A stretch of DNA of 64,000 nt, from the NCBI RefSeq assembly GCF_001512295.1, contig NZ_LNUP01000015.1, positions 248,001-312,000 of the forward strand, given 5' to 3'. Positions 34,687 to 45,378 of this stretch are shown in pieces (position 1 is the stretch's first letter; the number at the start of each line of letters is the position of its first letter). Made by a program: the position numbers and the translations under genes. The stretch comes from Pseudomonas sp. EpS/L25 (lineage in GTDB: Bacteria; Pseudomonadota; Gammaproteobacteria; Pseudomonadales; Pseudomonadaceae). The notes under the pieces are model-generated. The model searched no databases. It saw only the letters and a list, made by a program, of their open reading frames with translations, and was not told where the DNA came from.

Positions 34687-34703
34687 GCCAAGGGGGCGTC
34701 TTA

Positions 34704-34946
34704 GAACCTGTTCACGATCTGCTGCGCGTCGGCCAAACGGCGTTGAAAATGGCCTGGAAGGCCGGTCCCACCTGGGCGGTCCCGTCGCAATGCTCATTTA
34801 CCACTCGTAAACCCGAGCGCGAGTCCGATCCGCTTCCTCAGCCATTTGATTCGCTGGCGCTCACCCTACGGGCCAGCCGTTGGCTGTTACTCCCGTTGGT
34901 CGTTGCGCCTTGTTTGGCTCTAGCTCGCGAGATCGTGAATAGGTTC
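34704..34946 (-). mobile_element. MITE-like inverted-repeat element, copy 1 (243 bp)
   Basis: The ends are GAACCTGTTCACGATCT and, at the right, the complement of GAACCTATTCACGATCT. It is flanked by TTA on both sides (34701-34703 and 34947-34949), a 3-bp TNA target duplication. The right TTA is the TAA stop codon of metK. The interior aligns with the reverse complement of copy 3, plus about 60 extra bases near 34843-34905. No coding capacity. The minus sign marks its orientation relative to copies 2 and 3. Confidence 0.75.
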
Positions 34947-36137
34947 TTACAGGCCGGCGGCGGCGCGCAGGGCAGCGGCGCGGTCGGTACGTTCCCAGGT
35001 GAAGGTGGTGAAGGTGTCGTCACCCACCGTGATTTCCTGCGGATGCCGGCCGAAGTGGCCGTAGGCCGCGGTGGCGCGATACATCGGATGGAGCAGGTCG
35101 AGCATGGTGGTGATGGCGTAGGGACGCAGATCGAAGTGCTCGCGCACCAGCTGCACGATCTTCTCGTCGCTGATCCTGGCGGTGCCGAAGGTGTTGATCG
35201 AGATGGAGGTGGGCTGGGCCACGCCGATGGCGTAGGACACCTGGATCTCGCAACGGTCGGCCAGGCCGGCGGCGACGATGTTCTTGGCCACGTAGCGACC
35301 GGCGTAGGCAGCGCTGCGGTCGACCTTGGACGGGTCCTTGCCGGAGAAGGCGCCACCGCCGTGACGGGCCATGCCGCCGTAGCTGTCGACGATGATCTTG
35401 CGGCCGGTCAGGCCGCAGTCACCTACCGGGCCGCCGATGATGAACTGGCCGGTCGGGTTGATGTGGAACTGGGTGTCCTTGTGCAGCAGCTCGGCGGGGA
35501 TGACGTGCTTGACGATCAGCTCCATCACGGCTTCGCGCAGGTCGGCGTACTTGACCTCGGGGTTGTGCTGGGTGGACAGCACGATGGCGTCGATGCCGAC
35601 CACCTTGCCGCCCTCGTAGCGGCAGGTCACCTGGGACTTGGCGTCCGGGCGCAACCAGGGCAGCAGGCCCGATTTGCGCGCCTCGGCCTGGCGCTCCACC
35701 AGGCGGTGGGAGAAGGTGATGGGCGCGGGCATCAGTACGTCGGTCTCGTTGCAGGCGTAGCCGAACATCAGGCCCTGGTCGCCAGCGCCCTGGTCTTCCG
35801 GCTTGCTGCGGTCGACGCCCTGGGCGATATCCACCGACTGCTTGCCGATGATGTTGACGATGCCGCAGGTGGCGCCGTCGAAGCCCACGTCCGAGCTGTC
35901 GTAGCCGATGTCGACGATGACGTCGCGCACCAGTTGCTCCAGGTCGACCCAGGCGGAGGTGGTCACCTCACCGGCGACGATGGCCACACCGGTCTTGACC
36001 AGGGTCTCGCAGGCCACGCGGGCGTGCTTGTCCTGGGCGATGATGGCGTCGAGTACGGCGTCGGAGATCTGGTCGGCGATCTTGTCCGGATGGCCTTCGG
36101 AGACGGACTCGGAGGTGAACAGGGAGTATTCGCTCAT
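34947..36137 (-). CDS. metK: S-adenosylmethionine synthase MetK
   Basis: 396 aa. Signature sequences are [18 protein letters not shown] near the N-terminus, [16 protein letters not shown] and [19 protein letters not shown]. It makes SAM from methionine and ATP. The stop codon coincides with the target duplication of the adjacent repeat element, but the protein has normal length. The gene lies downstream of the ArsR/methyltransferase regulator at 36255, an arrangement known from pseudomonads, with tkt further on. Confidence 0.98.
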
Positions 36138-36254
36138 CGAACGGTTCCTAAATTACCAAGGGGTGAGGGCCCGAAGGCCGGTCGAGACAGCAGTTTGCGT
36201 ATTGGACATGACGCCTGGGGGCGCCGCTGTCCGCCCGCCACTGGCCAGTTAGCC

Positions 36255-43251: not shown

Positions 43252-43277
43252 AAGCCACGCTGCTGCGTGGCTTTTTT
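43252..43277 (+). terminator. Terminator of transketolase gene
   Basis: AAGCCACGC, a short loop, GCGTGGCTT, then TTTT, 23 bases after the stop codon. A strong intrinsic terminator. Confidence 0.88.
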
Positions 43278-43316
43278 ATGGCTGACATTCAGCGGAGGGA
43301 TAGTTCGCGGCCCTCG

Positions 43317-43506
43317 GAACCTGTTCACGATCTCGCGAGCTAGAGCCAAACAAGGCCTAGGCGGCCCCACGAAAACACCTGAGGAAGTCGCGCGCGAGTT
43401 TGCGAGTGGTAAATGAGCATTCCGGCGGGGCCGCCCAGGCGGGGCTGGCCTTCCAGGGTCTTTGCAATGCCGTTTGGCCGACGCGCAGCAGATCGTGAAC
43501 AGGTCC
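43317..43506 (+). mobile_element. MITE-like inverted-repeat element, copy 3 (190 bp)
   Basis: The left end is GAACCTGTTCACGATCT; the right end is the complement of GGACCTGTTCACGATCT. The flanks are TCG on the left (43314-43316) and TCA on the right (43507-43509), a TNA duplication with one change. The right TCA is, read on the minus strand, the TGA stop of vgrG. Inside, GTTTGGCCGACGCGCAGCAG and TTGTTTGGCTCTAGCTCGCG (complement) are shared with copy 1 in the opposite orientation. Confidence 0.75.
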
Positions 43507-45378
43507 TCAGGGATTCACCCTGATGCTCGCTCCCACCAAGGTGACGCCACCCGCATCCAGCTGGATGAAGCTGCCACCGGCCTTGAGGGTCAGGTGGACG
43601 CCAGCCTCCAGGACGATCTTCTGCCCGGACTGGAGCCGGATCTCACTACCGGCCTCGACGAACAGGCCGGTGCCCAGGCGCAGGTGCTGGCTGTCGCCGA
43701 TGTTCAGGTGGTCGTCGGCGCGGACCTCCGTGCGGCGTTCGCCGTGGGTGATGCGGTGTTCCTCGGCGTGAAATTCGCTGTAGCTGTTGGCGCGGATGCG
43801 TTGGTGCCGCTCGTGGCCGATCTCGCTGCGGTGGTCGTGGCCAATGCGTTCGTCCCAGTCACGCTGGGCGTGGATGTGGATCTCCTCCTGGCCCTGGCGA
43901 TCCTCGATGCGCAGTTCGTTGTAGCCACCGCCGCCGGGGCTGCTCAGGCTCTTGAAGCTGCTGTGGGTCTTGTCCTTGGGCAGTTCCAGCGGCGGACGAT
44001 GCTCGGCATGGTAGAGGCAGCCGGTGACCAGAGGCTGGTCGGGGTCCCCTTCGAGAAAGCCCACCAGTACCTCCATGCCGATGCGCGGCACGGCCAGGGC
44101 GCCATGGCCGTTGCCGGCCCAGCCGCTGGCGACTCGCAGCCAGCAGCTGGTGCGTTCATCCGCCTGGCCTTCGCGGTCCCAGTGGAATTGCACCTTGACC
44201 CGGCCGAGGGCGTCGCAGTGGATCTCTTCACCAGCCGGTCCGGTGACCACGGCGCTCTGGGCCCCTAGCAACCTTGGCTTGGGATGGCGCAGCGGTAGGC
44301 GGAAGGGTACCGACCAAGGGATGGCGGCGAAGGTATTGCGATAACCCTGGCGGAAGCCGTCGTCCTGCAGGCGACTATCGGCGCTGGTGATGCTTTCTTC
44401 GAGCACCTGGGGCTGCCGGCCCTGGTGACGAACCTCGGTCAGCAACCAGAGCTGGTTCCAGTCGCCGCGTGGGTGATCTTCCAGCGGTAGGAAATGCCCG
44501 CTCACCAGACTGGGCTGGTCGCTCGTGCCGCTGGCCTGGTGGGCGTCGGCCCTCAGGCGTTCCAGGCGTCGGCCGCTCAGACGCTGGCCGGTGTCACGGT
44601 CGGTGAAGCGGCCGGGAAAGCCGTAATGCTCCAGTGCCGGTTGAATGGTGGCCTGTGCGCTGCTTTCCAGCCGCAGGCGCGGCTTGAGGAAGTCATGATC
44701 GCGCAGGGTGGCAGCGCTGCTGCGGGTCCGCAAGGTGACAGCGAAGCGCCGGACCACGGGTTCGTCCGCCACCAGGCCACTGCCGGGCAGGTAGCGGGTG
44801 GCGCCCAGGCGGGGGAAACCGGTGGCGTCATCGCCGAACACCAGCACATGGCCATCGGGGCGGTGTTCGTGGTGATAGTGCAGGCCTTCCTCCTCGCATA
44901 GGCGATTGAGGAAGGCGAGATCGCTTTCGCCGTATTGCACGCAGTAGTCGCGTGGCGGATAGACCGTGGGGCCGAGGGCGAAGCGGTGGTCACCCTCGAG
45001 AATGCCGTGCTCTGCGAGCAGTTGGGCGAGGATCTGCGGGACGCTGCGCTGCTGGAAGATGCGCGAATTGACGCGGTGGGCGAGGTAGGCGAGCCGCGGC
45101 ACCAGGTCGAGGCGATAGCGGGTGAGGCGCTGGCCGGAATCACCCTGGGCGACGGCGGCGATCTGGCCATGGATGCCACCGCCCGGGGTCAAGCCCAGGT
45201 AGGCGCGGCGGTGCAGCAACTGCTCCAGTGGCCAGTCGGGTCTTTCGCTGACCAGGTCGAGCTGGAAGCGGTAGGGCTGGCCGATGGCTTCGCTGCCGTC
45301 GAAGGCGAGAATCTGGAAATCGTGAGCGACGCCTTCCAGCGTCAGGGTGAAGGGCGGAGCATTGGCCGGGCTGAACAT
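43507..45378 (-). CDS. vgrG: Type VI secretion tip protein VgrG, C-terminal tail apparently cut short
   Basis: 623 aa. The N-terminal gp27-like base runs from FTLTLEGVAHDFQILAFDGS to about residue 340. The gp5-like OB domain contains GPAGEEIHCDALGRVKVQFH and ASGWAGNGHGALAVPRIGME. A beta-helix with short repeats follows, ending LTLKAGGSFIQLDAGGVTLV, then GASIRVNP. Typical VgrG proteins continue with a Ser/Gly-rich tail after this point; here the TGA comes from the junction with the repeat element. No effector, adaptor or other type VI gene is in the window, so it is an orphan. Confidence 0.9.
   Translation of the reverse strand: MFSPANAPPFTLTLEGVAHDFQILAFDGSEAIGQPYRFQLDLVSERPDWPLEQLLHRRAYLGLTPGGGIHGQIAAVAQGDSGQRLTRYRLDLVPRLAYLAHRVNSRIFQQRSVPQILAQLLAEHGILEGDHRFALGPTVYPPRDYCVQYGESDLAFLNRLCEEEGLHYHHEHRPDGHVLVFGDDATGFPRLGATRYLPGSGLVADEPVVRRFAVTLRTRSSAATLRDHDFLKPRLRLESSAQATIQPALEHYGFPGRFTDRDTGQRLSGRRLERLRADAHQASGTSDQPSLVSGHFLPLEDHPRGDWNQLWLLTEVRHQGRQPQVLEESITSADSRLQDDGFRQGYRNTFAAIPWSVPFRLPLRHPKPRLLGAQSAVVTGPAGEEIHCDALGRVKVQFHWDREGQADERTSCWLRVASGWAGNGHGALAVPRIGMEVLVGFLEGDPDQPLVTGCLYHAEHRPPLELPKDKTHSSFKSLSSPGGGGYNELRIEDRQGQEEIHIHAQRDWDERIGHDHRSEIGHERHQRIRANSYSEFHAEEHRITHGERRTEVRADDHLNIGDSQHLRLGTGLFVEAGSEIRLQSGQKIVLEAGVHLTLKAGGSFIQLDAGGVTLVGASIRVNP

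Follow-up and report, generated by a model that had tools for sequence, protein, structure and literature searches.

The window analysed here is a stretch of 64,000 nucleotides from Pseudomonas sp. EpS/L25 (contig NZ_LNUP01000015.1, positions 248,001 to 312,000), which contains three short inverted-repeat elements, each abutting the stop codon of a gene: metK, a pqiC-type gene and vgrG. We consider it likely that these are miniature inverted-repeat transposable elements (MITEs) moved by an insertion sequence (IS) of the IS5 family of about 840 bp, and that their interior is a separate core, folded on one strand, which is found under several kinds of IS5-like ends. An initial annotation of the window had recognized an IS5-type MITE family and overlooked the conserved folded core, which turns up with other ends as well and in other phyla, gut Bacteroidota included. 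Bacterial MITEs are usually regarded as remnants of one IS; a core whose structure is conserved across phyla and beneath several ends implies that something selects the interior, and the question of how non-autonomous elements survive and change transposases can be tested on it.

Inverted arms are present in all three elements, and no gene of their own was found, the open reading frames that cross them being parts of longer chance frames. Element 1 (34704 to 34946, 243 bp) has its core on the minus strand, the same as metK (34947 to 36137, minus); with its flanks, 34701 to 34949 reads TTA/GAACCTGTTCACGATCT...TTC/TTA, the left copy of the target duplication occupying 34701 to 34703 and the right one (34947 to 34949, minus strand) being the TAA stop of metK. 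Element 2 (40977 to 41145, plus strand, 169 bp) is diverged and has GAGCCTGTTCAACGTCT ends, with the end variant GAGCCTGTTCAA; 40974 to 41148 reads TGA/GAGCCTGTTCAACGTCT...CTT/TGA, where the left TGA (40974 to 40976, plus strand) is the stop of a gene for a PqiC-type lipoprotein (40377 to 40976, plus; firm with Pfam PF03886 at 3e-35, while the pqiC name itself is weak in NCBIfam, E 2e-4 and below cut-off) and the right one lies at 41146 to 41148. Element 3 (43317 to 43506, 190 bp) carries its core on the plus strand, opposite to vgrG (43507 to 45378, minus); 43314 to 43509 reads TCG/GAACCTGTTCACGATCT...TCC/TCA, the left flank (43314 to 43316) being taken as a decayed TCA and the right one (43507 to 43509, minus strand) being the TGA stop of vgrG. 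The flanks, read directly, and the gene calls thus agree with what had been annotated for all three copies. A search of the window for the 17-base end with up to three mismatches gave four matches against 0.04 expected, and these are the two ends of element 1 and the two of element 3. At the pqiC stop, the copy is a genuine insertion with duplication: the site is intact, with a single TGA, in 7 of 12 congeners, and in the remaining five it did not align. The elements therefore combine the features of MITEs, being short and geneless, with terminal inverted repeats, a target duplication and empty sites in relatives.

The same family is abundant elsewhere in the genome. The end is present 86 + 88 times with up to three mismatches, compared with 8 + 3 times for the reversed pattern, and at least 192 candidate places were collected by merging 56 rows of the end search, 40 of the 47 rows of a second search and 147 rows matched by the covariance model R1 described below; some of these places are bare end matches, possibly due to chance. 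We retrieved 140 of 145 stretches, and 5 of the 192 places were left without a flank, giving 187 with flanks. Ends of the GAACCTGTTCACGATCT type (family A hereafter) stand on both sides in 131 of the 187 and not in the other 56, under a lax criterion that allows up to eight mismatches summed over both ends. The 3-bp flanks are identical in 52 of the 131 copies and are TNA in 49 of these 52; at five shifted offsets, used as a control, 0 to 4 of the 131 were identical and none was TNA. The consensus around the duplication is C-TNA-G, with C before it in 43 and G after it in 36 of the 52 copies. Duplication of a TNA target is characteristic of the IS1031-type group of the IS5 family, and the 49 TNA duplications agree with it. 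Among the copies read, lengths range from 102 to 243 bp in steps, since optional modules are inserted at set positions of one and the same core.

A candidate partner was found in relatives. The first to be seen, in genome G001, is an 833-bp IS flanked by TGA/TGA whose ends are exactly GAGCCTGTTCACGATCT; its first frame matches 8 of 198 genomes of the family. Complete IS with family-A ends and direct TNA flanks are present in G001 (833 bp), in G563 (three copies of 841 bp) and in G006 (846 bp, with one mismatch at one end), that is five loci in three relatives, and a fourth, G014, has more diverged versions. Both frames match models of the IS5 family (PF13340, PF01609 and NF033580, the last above its cut-off for the second frame and below it for the first). 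In G006, the end variant CAAAATCT is common to the IS and to many of the MITE ends. The annotated IS5-type MITE with TNA duplications is thereby borne out as far as such resemblance goes: to judge from their sequences, the elements look like MITEs mobilized by an IS5-family transposase, and the family-A IS would be the one that moves them. In the proposed mechanism, this IS would recognize GARCCTGTTCANNNTCT ends, insert at C-TNA-G and duplicate TNA, its transposases also moving the non-autonomous copies. We rejected the possibility that the MITE arose by internal deletion of the IS: R1 has no match in 13 loci holding IS transposases (this model search being the only comparison of the interior with the IS). 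The elements thus resemble IS5-family MITEs with TNA duplication in their shortness, inverted ends, TNA target, same-ended IS in relatives and PF13340 plus PF01609 transposase, but differ in that their interior is a conserved structured core, not found in the IS loci tested and common to elements with other ends.

This core spans about 110 nt inside the ends and displays strong compensatory base changes and near-invariant unpaired motifs. Our first alignment (A1) holds 69 ungapped cores, collected with an exact pattern in which GAGCATT and the apical hairpin are fixed. RNAalifold, run unaided on A1, returned one long stem with internal loops and 28 pairs, 16 of them double-changed; 95.7% of the cells pair, against 80.7% after shuffling and 33 to 44% with the partner slid by one to three columns, the shuffled controls throughout being of a kind that does not preserve the relatedness of rows. 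The AAGGC/AACG and GA/GA loops, which lie outside the search pattern, are either invariant or conserved to 90% or more across the 69 copies. The covariance model R1, whose calibration was short, lessens the pattern bias of A1. A more diverse alignment (A3, 68 distinct rows, of which 37 were found by R1 only, the others by pattern, and 3 are shared with A1) was fitted to R1, and so leans towards the model, and includes one weak antisense row (L443, plus strand); in it 93.3% of the cells pair, against 70.6% after shuffling, with double changes in 25 of 29 pairs. In the 37 rows found by R1 only, the apical stem is GUUUAC/GUAAAU in 28, GCGUAC/GUACGU in 4 and some other paired form in 5, and its basal G-U is kept in 65 of the 68 rows of A3. 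Compensatory changes thus exceed both the shuffled and the slid controls, as expected of a structured RNA. In the window, the conserved motif GTAAATGAGCATT lies at 34789 to 34801 (minus) in element 1 and, with one mismatch (GCAAATGAGCATT), at 41077 to 41089 (plus) in element 2, which R1 does not reach. R1 matches element 1 weakly, its modules being inserted (34718 to 34871, minus, 22.4 bits, E 0.0003), and, in element 3, the apical portion of the core (43381 to 43425, plus, 17.3 bits, E 0.01).

The optional modules are several different hairpins placed at fixed positions in the core. Element 1 carries, along with others, a 60-bp module (approximate extent 34845 to 34908, minus strand), inside which 34877 to 34908 consists of two imperfect 16-nt direct repeats that are 75% alike. 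Other optional modules occupy comparable places of the core in Nitrosomonadales, Desulfobacterales and another Pseudomonas (L101, L112, L200, L109). In some other Pseudomonadota (L434, L436, L437, L438), the core is shortened, with most of stem 1 gone and the apical hairpin retained; these relatives may form a distinct subfamily.

The core is spread far beyond Pseudomonas. The motif GTTTAC-N5-GTAAATGAGCATT has at least 117 matching stretches in genomes of named species, against about 7 expected by chance in that collection (18 fixed bases), in Pseudomonas, Halomonas, Marinobacter, Nitrosomonadales, Chromatiales, Methylococcaceae, Desulfobacterales and many metagenome-assembled genomes (MAGs) of Bacteroidota; nearly all of the matches listed share the same architecture in their flanks. 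R1, whose copy counts are lower bounds, matches at least 147 times in the genome of the window (among up to 150 candidates scored) and in at least 114 of 398 Pseudomonadota genomes (up to nine candidates scored per genome). In 25 genomes chosen for already having hits, many of them MAGs, which inform on copy number and not on prevalence, we counted at least 150 copies in a Nitrosomonadales MAG, 111 in a Desulfobacterales MAG, 90 in Lentimicrobiaceae, 64 in Nitrosomonas, 48 in Rikenellaceae and 46 in Alistipes, down to 1 in others. Bacteroidota MAGs have 10 to 90 matches, and the dozens of copies with their own ends in AT-rich Alistipes-like MAGs are not explained by stray contigs. A MAG labelled Pedobacter, with 23 matches and cores of gammaproteobacterial look, may be mislabelled. 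Of two scans of a plasmid collection, one matched 14 records (13 from Pseudomonas) and the other 16 (14 from Pseudomonas), and no match was found in Escherichia coli or in phage records at the sensitivity used. Nine records of viral contigs in IMG/VR (L214 to L222) contain the core motif and may be prophage or host DNA. One copy directly adjoins a gene for the bacterial small signal recognition particle (SRP) RNA (L427, 1501 to 1724, the Rfam hit being at 1626 to 1724) and another is some 50 bases away from a tRNA gene in an Alistipes MAG (L429, 1374 to 1611).

In named genomes and viral contigs, cores sit within at least five kinds of ends. By our own patterns, under which a few members of family B look misfiled, 121 cores divide into 70 with ends of families A to E, 27 with other ends and 24 with unresolved ones. 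The genome of the window itself contains a second end family (B), with TAGG-TYTGTACGAAAAG ends, a CTAG-like target and the same core (for example L263, L264 and L278), as well as three resident IS5-like loci with B-type ends (L063, L065 and L066, of which L065 and L066 contain stops or are shortened). There the GGAA/TTCC variant of the core accounts for 54 of 71 cores in family A and 22 of 25 in family B, and the same modules are found in both families (132 A and 43 B copies), modules m1 and m4 not being separated, as their patterns are near reverse complements and both strands were searched. These shared variants and modules suggest an exchange of ends between A and B, a fair reading of the sequences and no proof of it.

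We then compared the core with known families. Searches of Rfam with 17 loci and a single stretch of the window gave no family that reached its gathering score over a core; two sub-threshold hits overlap one core (L433), and hits to tRNA and SRP RNA lie beside cores. No description of the core was found in the open-licence literature, supplements being outside the search, and it is possible that it is listed already somewhere. In particular, it might figure among the 250 mobile or repeat sequence candidates of a survey of non-coding RNAs in 50 genomes (PMC11109978), which we regard as rather unlikely. Besides the number of its candidates, what speaks for this possibility is that the survey includes a motif similar in kind, MRSC-65-2, a long single covarying stem represented more than 20,000 times across diverse phyla, with dozens of copies in a genome and a suspected association with transposases. 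However, MRSC-65-2 is marked by repeated UYCCGG, and rows with even one UYCCGG number 0 of 69 in A1, 1 of 99 in an alignment termed A2 and 0 of 70 in A3, so we rejected the identity of the core with that motif; in addition, the ends, the duplications, a same-ended IS and the end families are resolved here. BOX elements of Streptococcus pneumoniae (PMC3049150) are likewise modular and MITE-like, with optional internal modules, a predicted RNA fold and IS-like terminal inverted repeats, but they are built from boxA, tandem boxB and boxC in streptococci, whereas our elements have different hairpin modules and a core that crosses phyla; we set them apart by description. Repeat families of Pseudomonas fluorescens (PMC2718517), also compared by description, are short and intergenic too, and some have inverted repeats and have been likened to MITEs; one of the families, R178, is 101 bp long with an 11-bp internal repeat. 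MITEAba12 (PMC6382973) and the QMITEs of Coxiella (PMC5896051), whose loci yield small RNAs, are bacterial MITEs as well; the former is reported from Moraxellaceae, QMITE1 is reported to be without orthologues in other genomes, and a core common to different end families is described in neither of these texts. The core could account for many unannotated intergenic repeats, which R1 can annotate.

If the structure worked in double-stranded DNA, G-U and A-C cells would be expected to be equally frequent; G-U exceeds A-C by 35 to 7 in A1 and by 47 to 7 in A3, which indicates that one strand folds. The pattern is selection-like, as if the fold were maintained by selection on that strand, and RNA is the probable folded molecule. 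Single-stranded DNA (ssDNA), for example on the lagging strand, would account for G-U over A-C as well as RNA does if the core served recognition or replication of the element, and the free orientation of insertions suits such a role; the authors of the survey raise the same possibility for MRSC-65-2 (PMC11109978). We nonetheless find this alternative unlikely, since terminal inverted repeats and TNA duplications are typical of DDE transposition, for which no ssDNA hairpin is needed, and IS loci with the same ends do without such a core. It is also quite unlikely that the elements are ordinary MITEs with a functionless core, in which template switching between the arms of an imperfect palindrome mimics compensation. 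Long inverted arms are the sequence class on which such correction acts, copies decay, their orientation is unbiased, and the G-U excess is only about 2 to 3:1 in some subsets. However, arm-to-arm correction would erase the AAGGC/AACG and GA/GA loops, which are conserved, and G-U is above A-C in every set counted, whereas a double-strand process is symmetric.

Returning to a core that folds on one strand, we propose that the interior would be a separate unit of about 110 nt and not a deleted IS, formed by a long stem that contains fixed internal loops of non-Watson-Crick type and is capped by a GUUUAC-N5-GUAAAU hairpin. Its fold would be selected on one strand, most likely as RNA produced by read-through transcription, and would aid the persistence or spread of the element, with binding to some broadly conserved protein as the likeliest means. 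The core, having joined the ends of several IS5-like transposons, could spread by means of different transposases, an exchange of ends that we infer. A further step would be to see the core as one structured RNA lineage, reaching from Pseudomonas to Bacteroidota and Desulfobacterota, a passenger that repeatedly adopts the ends of different IS5-like transposons and whose conserved fold, as RNA, serves its own spread or tolerance. This step is tentative and in our judgement would sooner fail than hold; we weighted it down in view of the recounted G-U excess and of the core variants counted per end family. If true, the core would amount to a selfish gene for an RNA, one that encodes no protein and can swap its transposon ends.

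Several observations weigh against these proposals. First, the full IS with the same ends that the initial annotation had asked for exists in the three relatives, and no family-A transposase was found in this assembly (first frame, E 1e-10), where none of six PF01609 loci has family-A ends, so the copies in the genome of the window may now be stranded. Second, in the genome-wide table of flanks, which the annotation had called for, 79 of the 131 copies have unequal flanks: either most copies are old, as they look, or the lax end criterion admitted false ends. Third, the G-U excess is uneven. A single pair supplies 18 of the 47 G-U cells of A3; the ratio of G-U to A-C is 25:6 without that pair and the shared rows and 20:7 in the rows found by R1 only, while in a set from the genome of the window it is 69:23, 45:20 minus a doubtful pair and 28:15 in copies without inserts. 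Fourth, the core variant partly tracks the end family in other Pseudomonas genomes (AAAA in 11 of 13 with C ends, GGAA in 9 of 13 with A ends and in 8 of 8 with B ends), and outside Pseudomonas only two B-like cores were found, both AAAA/TTTT. Finally, a promoter scan of element 3 gave no promoter-like site, and the core shows no bias in orientation relative to the gene beside it (12 same, 16 opposite), which lends no support to a role in cis within transcripts; on this ground we rejected a cis role at mRNA 3' ends.

The position of the three elements at stop codons had been read as a preference, either because TNA includes stops or because insertion there is harmless. Using a simple gene caller trained on the genome of the window, which recovers metK, pqiC, tkt and vgrG in the window with the same stops, we found that 28 of the 52 copies with identical flanks lie exactly at a stop codon. 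After dropping six duplications (three not TNA, three within called genes), 28 of 46 are at stops against 15.3 expected from every TNA of the same intergenic region (z 5.2), and 27 of 45 against 18.7 expected when the context is required on one side only (P 0.0005). With full CTNAG sites as the reference, the count is 19 of 28 with 16.7 expected (P 0.06), a comparison of low power with only six informative regions. The bias is thus real, but it is largely a matter of the C-TNA-G target and of survival, and a special liking for stops is unsupported against CTNAG. Of the causes that had been offered, the first plays a part, since any TNA reads as a stop codon in one of the two strands; as to the second, the gene keeps its stop after insertion, the duplication restoring it, so that such insertions would be tolerated. 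Copies surviving at stops are many because the stop is restored and contexts such as C-TGA-G fit the target. That the transposase genuinely prefers stop codons or gene 3' ends beyond C-TNA-G, as the comparisons with all TNA and with one-sided context would favour, is very improbable given the full-context result and the expectation that selection removes insertions within genes. We accordingly dropped stop preference as a separate trait, the full-CTNAG control taking away most of the excess; the half-context excess persists, and a small additional preference beyond the target motif and loss in genes is possible. The stop-codon bias is thus a clear case of an apparent preference that results from a target motif and survival.

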